From Trebonia kvetii (lineage in GTDB: Bacteria; Actinomycetota; Actinomycetes; Streptosporangiales; Streptosporangiaceae), in contig NZ_RPFW01000003.1 of assembly GCF_007827045.1 (NCBI RefSeq), forward strand, positions 372,001 to 436,000: 64,000 nucleotides of DNA, read 5' to 3'. The notes below the pieces were generated by a model. The model saw only the letters and a program-made list of their open reading frames with translations, did not search any database and had not been told where the DNA came from. A program made the position numbers and the translations under genes. Below, in pieces: positions 5,313 to 53,441 of this stretch (position 1 is the first letter of the stretch; the number at the start of each line of letters is the position of its first letter).

Positions 5313-5948
5313 GTGCACGGCATGCCTGGCAGTGATACGCCACGTGACCAGCCACACACGGGCCAGGACGGCGGAGCTCTGCCCGGCAAGGCCGGCCTGC
5401 GGCAGCGCGTGCTCGCGGCCCGTGCGGCAATGCCAGAATCCGCGCGTACCGACGCCAGCCGCCTCATCAGGGATCATGTGCTCGAAATGCCGGAGGTGGC
5501 CGCCGCTGGCACGATAGCGGCGTATTACTCGGTCGGCACCGAGCCGGGCACGCACAGCCTCGTCTTCGCGCTGTGGAAGCGCGGCAGTTATGTAATTCTT
5601 CCCGTTCTGCTCCCCGACGGCGACCTTGACTGGGCGTCCTACGAGGGGCCGGATGCGCTCGCACCAGGGCCCCGGGACATGCTCCAGCCGACGGAGCCGG
5701 TTCGCGGCCCGGGGACGGTGGCCCGCGCCGATATCGTCCTGGTCCCGGCGCTCGCGGTCGACGCCGCGGGCAACCGGCTCGGCAGGGGCGGCGGCTCCTA
5801 TGACCGGGCGCTCGCCAGGGTCGGCGGCCAGGTGCCCACGATCGCGCTGCTCTACGACGGCGAACTGCTGCCCGGCGTGCCCGCCGAGCCGCACGACAGG
5901 CCCGTCCGCGCGGTCGCCCGTCCCGGTGACGGCATCACCTGGCTGTAG
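5313..5948 (+). CDS. 5-formyltetrahydrofolate cyclo-ligase
   Basis: A 211-residue protein of the 5-FTHF cyclo-ligase (MTHFS) family. It has the basic N-terminal helix KAGLRQRVLAARAAM, the substrate region GTEPGTHSLVFALWKRG, the DIVLVPALAVDAAGNRLG segment and the ATP-phosphate loop GRGGGSYDRAL. The enzyme recycles 5-formyl-THF to methenyl-THF. GTG 5313 is chosen because CTGGGGAGC lies 3-9 bases upstream; ATG 5322 is an alternative. Its position divergent from galU is conserved in actinobacteria. Confidence 0.92.
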   Translation: MHGMPGSDTPRDQPHTGQDGGALPGKAGLRQRVLAARAAMPESARTDASRLIRDHVLEMPEVAAAGTIAAYYSVGTEPGTHSLVFALWKRGSYVILPVLLPDGDLDWASYEGPDALAPGPRDMLQPTEPVRGPGTVARADIVLVPALAVDAAGNRLGRGGGSYDRALARVGGQVPTIALLYDGELLPGVPAEPHDRPVRAVARPGDGITWL

Positions 5949-5963
5949 CCGGGCGAGGACCTT

Positions 5964-5992
5964 GGGGGGTACGGGGGTCGTCCCCCCGGGGG
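5964..5992. repeat. G-rich palindromic element, copy 1
   Basis: The sequence is GGGGGGT-ACGGGGGTCGTCCCCCC-GGGGG. It can fold into a G/C stem around TCGT and lies between the folate gene stop and the FmdB gene. Related copies occur at 46390-46415, 52302-52328 and (inverted) 61020-61044. Confidence 0.7.
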
Positions 5993-6031
5993 ATGCAGCG
6001 CGGAATGCGAGGGTGGCCTGCGCGGTTATCC

Positions 6032-6058
6032 TTAGCAGTCTGCTACTGAGACTGCTAA
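6032..6058. promoter_or_regulatory. CIRCE-like palindrome upstream of fmdB
   Basis: TTAGCAGTC-N9-GACTGCTAA is a perfect inverted repeat, extending to 10 bp with a 7-base loop. Its length and 9-base spacing equal those of CIRCE, the HrcA operator (TTAGCACTC-N9-GAGTGCTAA). It differs by one symmetrical base change in each arm. It ends 38 bases before the FmdB start. It could be an operator or a plain hairpin at the end of the folate transcript. Confidence 0.5.
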
Positions 6059-6096
6059 TCTAGCGAACTGAATTTGGTTCCGCCTGGGAGGAATTC

Positions 6097-6459
6097 GTGC
6101 CCACATACCAGTACGCCTGCACCGAGTGCGGTGGCCAGCTCGAAGCGGTGCAGAAGTTCACCGACGAGCCGCTCACCGTGCATGAGGACTGCGGCGGCCG
6201 GCTGCGCAAGGTCTTCTCGCCCGTGGGCATCGTGTTCAAGGGGTCCGGCTTCTACCGGACCGACAGCCGCGGCAGCGGCTCATCCAGCGGCACGTCGTCT
6301 TCGGCCGCCGCCGCGGCCAAGGACAGCGGATCGTCGTCCGCGGGCTCCGCGGACTCGTCCTCGTCGAGCTCCTCGTCCGCCTCAGGCGGCGAGAAGGCCA
6401 CGGCGTCGGCGAGCTCGACCGCGAGCAGTGGTAGTTCCTCGGGCGAAAAGGTCGCCTGA
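6097..6459 (+). CDS. FmdB-family zinc-ribbon protein
   Basis: A 120-residue small regulator-like protein. The first 50 residues are an FmdB zinc ribbon: PTYQYACTECGG with Cys8 and Cys11, then HEDCGGRLRKVFSP with His29 and Cys32 as probable partners, and GIVFKGSGFYRTDS. The last 60 residues are almost pure Ser/Ala/Gly and look disordered. GTG 6097 follows TGGGAGGAATTC. The family's function is not known beyond a proposed regulatory role. The downstream MTA phosphorylase starts four bases after its stop. Confidence 0.85.
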   Translation: MPTYQYACTECGGQLEAVQKFTDEPLTVHEDCGGRLRKVFSPVGIVFKGSGFYRTDSRGSGSSSGTSSSAAAAAKDSGSSSAGSADSSSSSSSSASGGEKATASASSTASSGSSSGEKVA

Positions 6460-6463
6460 GCCC

Positions 6464-7270
6464 GTGGCCGCGGTGGCGGACATCGGGGTCATCGGCGGGT
6501 CAGGGTTCTACGAGTTCCTGACCGGCGCCGAGGAAGTCCGGGTGGACACCCCGTTCGGTGAGCCGAGCGAGACGCTGCTCGTCGGTGAGGCCGGTGGCAA
6601 GCGGGTGGCCTTCCTCCCGCGGCACGGCAAGGACCACCGGTTCCCGCCGCACAAGATCCCGTACCGCGCCAACCTGTGGGCGATGCGTGCGCTCGGCGTG
6701 CGGCGCATCCTGGCGCCAAGCGCGGTGGGCTCGCTCACCACGTCCTATGGCCCTGGCACGCTGATCGTTCCCGACCAGCTCGTGGACCGGACCACCAGCC
6801 GGGTGCAGACCTTCTACGACGAGTACGCGGTGCACGTGCCGTTCGCCGACCCGTACTGCCCGTCGGGCCGTGGGCACGCCATCGGCACCGCCAGGCGGGC
6901 GGGCTGGGTGCCCGCCGGTTCCGGCACGCTCGTCGTCATCGACGGCCCGCGGTTCTCCACTCGCGCCGAGTCGCAGTGGTATGCCGCCCAGGGCTGGACG
7001 CTGATCGGGATGACCGCGCACCCCGAGGCGGTGCTCGCTCGCGAACTTGCCCTCTGCTACACGAATCTCGCCCTGGTCACCGACACCGACGCTGGCGTCG
7101 AGGAGGGCGAGGGGGTCACCCAGGCGGAGGTGTTCGAGGTCTTCGCCAAGAACATCACCCGGCTCCGTGAACTGGTGGCGAAGATCATCGAGGCGTTTCC
7201 CGACGAACGTGAGGATGACCTGTGCGCCCACGCGCTCGACGGCATCCGGTTGCCGATCGACCTGCCTTAG
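6464..7270 (+). CDS. S-methyl-5'-thioadenosine phosphorylase
   Basis: A protein of about 268 residues of the MTAP/PNP family. It has the phosphate loop DIGVIGGSGFYEFL, FLPRHGKDHRFPPHKIPYR, GSLTTSYGPGTLIVPDQ, the catalytic-site GPRFSTRAESQW, GMTAHPEAVLAREL and TDTDAGVEEGEG. Two Asp residues in TDTD fit 6-aminopurine recognition, so methylthioadenosine is the likely substrate (methionine salvage). The start is not certain: GTG 6464 and GTG 6473 both precede the conserved DIGVIGG. The gene is almost fused to fmdB and probably co-transcribed. Confidence 0.9.
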   Translation: MAAVADIGVIGGSGFYEFLTGAEEVRVDTPFGEPSETLLVGEAGGKRVAFLPRHGKDHRFPPHKIPYRANLWAMRALGVRRILAPSAVGSLTTSYGPGTLIVPDQLVDRTTSRVQTFYDEYAVHVPFADPYCPSGRGHAIGTARRAGWVPAGSGTLVVIDGPRFSTRAESQWYAAQGWTLIGMTAHPEAVLARELALCYTNLALVTDTDAGVEEGEGVTQAEVFEVFAKNITRLRELVAKIIEAFPDEREDDLCAHALDGIRLPIDLP

Positions 7271-52429: not shown

Positions 52430-52455
52430 GGAATTGCGCGGGGCATGACGGTGTT
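52430..52455 (+). promoter_or_regulatory. SigR-type autoregulatory promoter
   Basis: GGAAT (52430-52434), 18 bases, GTT (52453-52455) is exactly the SigR-family pattern GGAAT-N18-GTT. It lies about 110 bases upstream of GTG 52564 and just upstream of the in-frame ATG 52465, as in the self-activating second sigR promoter of Streptomyces. Confidence 0.75.
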
Positions 52456-52563
52456 GAACGCGTCATGGCACTTGCCTCTACAACGCTGACCCGGCCACGC
52501 CGGTCCATCTCCCCACAGCAGGGGAAGGTATCCTCTTACGGTTACCGAGAGGGGGTGGGTCCC

Positions 52564-53172
52564 GTGCCAGAGACGCCCGTGCCTGAGAGACTTGCCGAGC
52601 GGAGCGAGCGCTTCGAGGCAGATGTAATGCCATACCTGGATCAGCTGTACTCCGCCGCCCTCCGGATGACCCGGAACCCGGCGGACGCTGAGGACCTGGT
52701 GCAGGAGACTTTCGCCAAGGCGTATGCGTCCTTCCACCAGTTCCAGGAGGGCACCAACCTGAAGGCGTGGCTCTTCAGGATCCTTACCAATACTTTCATC
52801 AACACCTACCGCAAGCGGCAGCGTGAACCGCAGCGGTCCGGCTCGGACGAGGTGGAGGACTGGCAGCTCGCGCGCGCGGCCTCGCACAGTTCCGGCGGCC
52901 TCAAGTCGGCAGAGGCCGAGGCGCTGGACAGGCTACCCGACTCCGATATCAAGACGGCGCTGCAGACGCTGCCAGAGGAGTTCAGGATCGCGGTCTACCT
53001 CGCTGACGTCGAGGGTTTCGCGTACAAGGAAATCGCCGACATTATGGGCACTCCGATCGGCACCGTGATGTCGCGGCTTCACCGCGGCCGACGCCAGCTT
53101 CGGGAACTGCTCGCTGACTACGCGGCCGACCTTGGCCTCGTCCGGGCGAACGCCGAGGAGAGTGGGCAATGA
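52564..53172 (+). CDS. sigR: ECF sigma factor SigR (thiol-oxidative stress)
   Basis: A 202-residue ECF sigma factor from GTG 52564 (GAGAGGGGGTGGGTCCC upstream). Sigma-2 reads [20 protein letters not shown] and [20 protein letters not shown]; sigma-4 reads [19 protein letters not shown] and [18 protein letters not shown]. This is the SigR/SigH family. The frame is open upstream to ATG 52465, allowing a longer isoform with 33 more residues, as reported for Streptomyces. Stop overlaps rsrA as ATGA. Confidence 0.93.
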
Positions 53173-53441
53173 GCTGCGGGAACCCACACGAGACGCCGTG
53201 CAGCGAGGTACTCGACCGGGTTTACTGGTACCTGGACGGCGAGGTCTCCGAAGAGGACTGCGACCACATCAGGCAGCACCTCGACGAGTGCGGTCCGTGC
53301 CTGCGGGAGTACGGCCTCGAGGAAGCGGTAAAGCGCGTCGTTGCTAAGCATTGCGGATGCGATCCGGCGCCGAGCGAACTGCGCGACAAGATCCTGGTGC
53401 GCATCCGGCAAGTCCAGGCCGAGATCGAAGTATTCGAATAA
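53169..53441 (+). CDS. rsrA: Zinc-binding redox anti-sigma factor RsrA
   Basis: A 90-residue ZAS-family anti-sigma factor. Cys3, Cys11, Cys31, His37, Cys41 and Cys44 match the S. coelicolor RsrA positions, including the H-x3-C-x2-C zinc motif HLDECGPC; the C-terminal pair is Cys62 and Cys64. Under thiol oxidation a disulfide forms, zinc is lost and SigR is freed. It starts [16 protein letters not shown] and is translationally coupled to sigR. Confidence 0.95.

Follow-up and report, generated by a model that had tools for sequence, protein, structure and literature searches.

A CIRCE-type palindrome with one base exchanged in each arm, very probably an HrcA operator, at the SigR/SigH-type promoter of fmdB in Trebonia kvetii

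The palindrome before fmdB is, judging from its sequence and setting, very probably an ordinary HrcA binding site at the stress promoter of a chaperone-like gene. We give a probability of about 0.88 to the reading that HrcA binds it as an operator and thereby represses fmdB, probably together with the phosphorylase gene behind it, over the start region of a SigR/SigH-type promoter, and that the exchange in its left arm is old and the one in its right arm later. This kind of operator is known, and the gene is a known HrcA target in one relative; to this it joins a class-wide asymmetry enriched at fmdB and a second exchange private to this genome.

Results

The palindrome TTAGCAGTC-TGCTACTGA-GACTGCTAA can be read directly at positions 6032-6058 of the window, by which we mean the whole stretch of 64,000 nucleotides analysed here (Table 1). 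It is a 9-bp inverted repeat around a 9-nt spacer, as CIRCE elements are, and it agrees with the canonical CIRCE arms, TTAGCACTC and GAGTGCTAA, at 16 of the 18 arm bases. The two departures are C to G at position 7, in the left arm, and G to C at position 21, in the right arm, which is position 6052 of the window; all other arm bases are perfect. A preliminary description of this DNA had noted the length and spacing of the HrcA operator and a C/G exchange in both arms, exactly as found here, and a scan of the 64 kb for the pattern that it put forward, TTAGCASTC-N9-GASTGCTAA, returned this site alone when up to three mismatches were allowed (at 0 mismatches, against a mean of 0.02 matches in shuffled windows). 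Upstream of the site the 5-formyl-THF cyclo-ligase gene ends (stop at 5948), and 38 nt downstream of it fmdB begins (GTG at 6097).

Table 1. Features at the fmdB locus and at the sigma factor locus of the same window.
Feature	Position	Strand	Basis or remark
5-Formyltetrahydrofolate cyclo-ligase gene	5313..5948	+	upstream of operator
SigR/SigH-type promoter GGAATG-N17-GTT (= GGAAT-N18-GTT)	6002..6027	+	motif scan; ends 4 nt before operator
Probable HrcA operator (CIRCE-type)	arms 6032-6040 and 6050-6058, spacer 6041-6049	.	position 7 exchanged, both arms
Probable ribosome-binding site GGGAGGA	6086..6092	+	read in sequence, inferred
fmdB, FmdB-family zinc-ribbon protein (CxxC_CxxC_SSSS), relative of Ruc	6097..6459	+	PF09723; TIGR02605
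S-methyl-5'-thioadenosine phosphorylase gene	6464..7270	+	NF005876; 4 nt after fmdB; start codon inferred
Second SigR-type promoter, before sigR	52430..52455	+	motif scan
sigR/sigH-type sigma factor gene	52564..53172	+	TIGR02947; start codon inferred
Probable anti-sigma factor, RsrA-like, motif HLDECGPC	53169..53441	+	named from position and motif

The element before the palindrome has the GGAAY(R)-N17/18-GTT form of SigR/SigH promoters and a SigR-type sigma factor gene is present in the genome. Its -35 and -10 elements and their spacing are exact when set beside the SigH consensus GGAAYR-N17-18-GTT and the C. glutamicum consensus GGAAT-N18-19-GTT, as given in the available text of PMC4803200 and PMC10012870, respectively. 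Unlike those promoters, this one has a probable HrcA operator 4 nt downstream, so that the operator adjoins the promoter of its target gene at the predicted start region. The motif matches three times in the window, versus 0.47 expected by chance. Among the matches listed, a SigR-type element also precedes fmdB in 62 of the 177 operator-bearing homologues, versus 0.6 in shuffles, and in these 62 it overlaps, abuts or slightly precedes the operator at fixed offsets. The sigma factor encoded in the window, recognised by TIGR02947 at 52582-53148 (346 bits, cut-off 251.55), is likely the activator of fmdB. Besides fmdB with its SigR-type promoter, the window contains, at 52430-53441, a sigR-rsrA-type gene pair that has a SigR-type promoter of its own.

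The fmdB product scores 62 bits against TIGR02605 (cut-off 31.3), is also above the cut-off of PF09723, and shows the features of the FmdB/Ruc family, namely an N-terminal CxxC-CxxC zinc ribbon and a Ser-rich tail visible in the translation. The thioadenosine phosphorylase gene is the probable second gene of the fmdB transcript. It is the same-strand neighbour within 700 nt behind fmdB in 30 of the 56 loci examined, and methionine salvage may thus come under heat or thiol-stress regulation together with fmdB. We do not think that the 5-formyltetrahydrofolate cyclo-ligase gene is under the control of the operator. Behind that gene, at 5960-5995, lies a G-/C-rich hairpin that lacks a T-run and is not exceptional (z -1.9).

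For relatives, we defined the operator as a match with at most three mismatches to TTAGCANTC-N9-GANTGCTAA within 300 nt upstream of fmdB. Matches to fmdB were found in 54 of a set of 60 genomes and gave 55 homologues, three weak second matches being excluded and one genome having two good ones; the operator precedes 54 of these 55, the exception being a 1.4-Mb genome. A class-wide sample (fmdB match in 292 of 295 genomes) added 137 homologues, namely the matches listed, which were the better-scoring ones, and across both sets the operator precedes 177 of 192 homologues among the matches listed, compared with 1 of 3840 shuffled upstream regions. The conservation upstream of fmdB on which the preliminary description had made its case depend is therefore present. 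Since 15 of the 192 homologues among the matches listed have no operator, HrcA control of fmdB is not universal; 10 of these 15 belong to a single family, f25. In that family (for example L361, L345 and L316), 10 of 24 fmdB homologues among the matches listed are without an HrcA operator and 14 retain it.

The two exchanges have very different distributions. At position 7, on the promoter side, 101 of the 177 fmdB sites among the matches listed have G, 71 have C and 5 have A; at position 21, on the gene side, 175 have the canonical G and 2 have C. The position 7/21 pairs are G/G in 100, C/G in 70, A/G in 5, G/C in one (this genome) and C/C in one. A purine at position 7 is present in 106 of the 177 fmdB sites among the matches listed; in the main control set (control loci: 30 groES and 30 hrcA, among the matches listed) none of 28 hrcA and none of 35 groES sites has one, and the right-arm position is canonical in 28/28 hrcA and 34/35 groES sites. 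Within the 60-genome set, 44 of 54 fmdB sites have G7, whereas of 63 groES and hrcA sites a single one departs from the canonical base at position 7 or 21 (Fisher 3e-21, a value that does not count independent events, as the sequences are related). Five further hrcA loci from close relatives were added, and because two of them (G002 and G004) carry the left exchange, we rejected strict specificity of the half-swap for fmdB: the left-arm exchange is a strong but not exclusive signature of fmdB operators. Single-arm swaps also occur at a few other sites away from fmdB (G025:C3, G042:C15). Among the matches listed, 12 families have only a purine at position 7, 14 only C and 3 are mixed, a distribution from which the left exchange appears to be old or recurrent.

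Both exchanges together are private to this genome, which provides 1 of the 54 sites in the 60-genome set and is alone in this respect among the 8 genomes of its genus. The preliminary description had seen in the symmetric double change a sign of selection for the dyad. A coordinated change is not supported: the left exchange is present in 44 of the 54 sites of the 60-genome set and the right joined to it in only one of the 54, and the change is better read as two separate events. A base error at position 21 may also account for the second exchange, given an assembly of 93 contigs with an estimated contamination of 8.2%.

Several ideas about why the left arm deviates were tried. One was that position 7 is the initiating base of the transcript, where a purine would be favoured. 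Among the matches listed, position 7 is C in 44 of the 45 fmdB sites whose SigR-type GTT lies at offset -2 or 0 and in the one site where it lies at offset 11, and G in all 16 sites where it lies at offset 4 or 8; G021, with GTC in place of GTT and C7, falls outside this pattern. Of 28 hrcA operators, however, 26 have a TAnnnT box whose last T is also the base that opens the left arm, and all 28 have C7, although many G7 fmdB sites share this register. The purine at fmdB therefore cannot be put down to register alone, and the transcription-start idea was dropped as the main explanation. The breaking of an RNA hairpin was likewise rejected as a general reason: most fmdB stems are broken, yet this genome restores the stem. 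Simple indifference of HrcA to the base at positions 7 and 21 is unlikely, since the gene-side arm is almost never changed. It is possible that a putatively lowered HrcA affinity, tuning the expression of fmdB, explains the deviation of the left arm.

Discussion

The fmdB palindrome resembles a CIRCE/HrcA operator, whose consensus is TTAGCACTC-N9-GAGTGCTAA in the available text of PMC545781, in its 9-9-9 layout, its TTAGCA/TGCTAA and TC/GA core and its place between promoter and start codon in a genome with hrcA; it differs in the exchange at position 7 of both arms and in having fmdB, rather than groE or dnaK, as its target. The genome has one HrcA gene, intact (PF01628), and at up to three mismatches four further CIRCE-like palindromes, all at heat-shock genes: one before groES (C32:513748), one before hrcA, and two in tandem upstream of an open frame that can be aligned with GroEL proteins.

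The preliminary description regarded FmdB as not being a known HrcA target, and here it is contradicted by work on Mycobacterium tuberculosis. According to the available text of PMC7448276, ruc (Rv0991c) is one of four genes under direct HrcA repression, is induced by SigH and has overlapping HrcA and SigH sites; the portion available of PMC8557902 also names it as an HrcA target, both describe Ruc as a redox-regulated chaperone, and a 40.3-fold SigH-dependent expression in heat is given in that of PMC4803200. The locus studied here is like that of ruc, as far as those texts describe it, in having an orthologous FmdB-type gene and a SigH/SigR-type promoter overlapping or near the HrcA site. 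It differs in the next gene, a thioadenosine phosphorylase gene here versus rv0990c in the rv0991c-rv0990c operon (PMC8557902, available text). It also differs from the g35 genomes of family f6 (candidate Mycobacterium-like), which have the left arm CTAGCACTT or CTGGCACTT, with C7 and the GTT at offset 0.

By analogy with the M. tuberculosis orthologue, we propose that in unstressed cells HrcA would occupy 6032-6058 and, by masking the region where transcription from the SigR-type promoter begins, prevent initiation. Under heat or thiol stress, HrcA would be released and SigR freed from its anti-sigma factor; SigR would then recognise GGAATG-N17-GTT, and fmdB, probably with the phosphorylase gene, would be transcribed. 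The product would probably act as a redox-regulated holdase-type chaperone, like Ruc. The C-to-G change in the left arm would be an old trait common to fmdB operators of the class, and the change in the right arm a later substitution in this lineage that restored perfect dyad symmetry, yielding a variant on which HrcA evidently acts at the heat-shock genes of other phyla.

The principal alternative is that the site derives from an HrcA operator and was made weak or non-functional by the second exchange, with fmdB leaving the HrcA regulon for control by SigR alone. The near-invariance of the right arm (175 of 177 fmdB sites among the matches listed, and the hrcA and groES counts given above) speaks for it, and HrcA may indeed favour the canonical base there, in which case the double swap would be a weakened site. 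The privacy of the double swap among the 8 genomes of the genus points the same way, as does the lack of a compensating change in HrcA: residues 4-75, the DNA-binding region, do not differ from those of relatives G002, G004 and G009, where the right arm of the fmdB site is canonical, and for this reason we rejected a coupled change in the repressor. However, the remaining arm bases are perfect and the change restores symmetry, unlike a random mismatch. Moreover, a scan of genome contigs for exact TTAGCAGTC-N9-GACTGCTAA gave at least 117 stretches, whereas chance alone, with equal base frequencies over 257 Gb, would give about 4, and among the matches listed 110 of the 117 stand beside heat-shock or protein-quality genes. 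These genes are groES/groEL (57), hrcA (19), rpoH (16), htpG (6), hsp20 (5), fmdB (3), AAA+ genes (3) and dnaK (1), again among the matches listed; 7 of the 117 have no gene assignment, 3 of them lacking an open frame. The groES, groEL, hrcA and fmdB neighbours were assigned by tblastn, one of the 57 groES/groEL cases by eye, and the rpoH, htpG, hsp20, AAA+ and dnaK groups by clustering, with one representative of each checked by profile (the AAA+ representative is of Clp type). Because 110 of 117 such sites adjoin these genes, HrcA evidently accepts the double-exchanged form in those other lineages, and we consider a weakened site at fmdB improbable.

That the palindrome is the operator of a different dimeric regulator, with CIRCE geometry by coincidence, is more improbable still. 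The exchanged position is otherwise nearly constant in the groES and hrcA operators of the class, which speaks for such a regulator, but fmdB sites form a continuum of C, G or A at that one position with the other core bases constant, the double-swap sites of other bacteria adjoin HrcA-regulon genes (among the matches listed), and HrcA represses the M. tuberculosis orthologue (PMC7448276, available text). Least credible is that the palindrome serves the folate gene as a transcription terminator or RNA hairpin; the preliminary description had named action solely as a terminator among the findings that would refute its reading. Although a 9-pair hairpin is possible (-13.7 kcal/mol, z -4.3), the T-run that follows the G+C-rich stem of an intrinsic terminator is not found behind the palindrome (TCTAGCGAAC follows the stem), 5500-6600 contains 0 terminator-like sites, G-G or A-G oppositions break the stem in 105 of 177 sites among the matches listed while the DNA half-sites are kept, and the palindrome sits just downstream of a promoter element, close before fmdB.

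Taking the palindrome as an HrcA operator, we raise as a tentative suggestion, about which we are more doubtful than confident, that the fmdB operators of many actinobacterial families are a distinct asymmetric class of HrcA site, in which the half-site next to the promoter has a purine at position 7, the gene side is canonical and the derepression threshold differs from that of groE in the same cell, and that this genome has re-symmetrised its copy. In the literature covered on FmdB, SigR and HrcA/CIRCE half-sites this base exchange is not reported, although many subscription papers lie outside that coverage and its absence is unproven; the swapped arm strings are absent from the available text of PMC545781. 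The HrcA-SigR/SigH-FmdB/Ruc link known from M. tuberculosis is extended here to other actinobacteria, which suggests that dual control of fmdB by HrcA and SigR/SigH is old. The fmdB sites also offer a natural set of operators that deviate at one half-site base where the groES and most hrcA sites of the class do not, which can serve to study operator recognition by HrcA and the ranking of targets by a repressor. A CIRCE search that insists on a rigid consensus will overlook such sites.

Two observations concern other bacteria. In at least 16 stretches, mostly from Stenotrophomonas, Lysobacter and their relatives (L106:1106-1132; for example L068, L085 and L154), an exact double-exchanged CIRCE precedes rpoH by 1-35 nt, a placement that suggests that HrcA controls sigma-32 in those bacteria; a CIRCE before rpoH in Geobacter sulfurreducens is described in the available text of PMC545781. 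Some groES loci of other families (L216, L220, L221 and L226) carry two CIRCE-like sites, several of them with TTGAC or GTCAA in the spacer.
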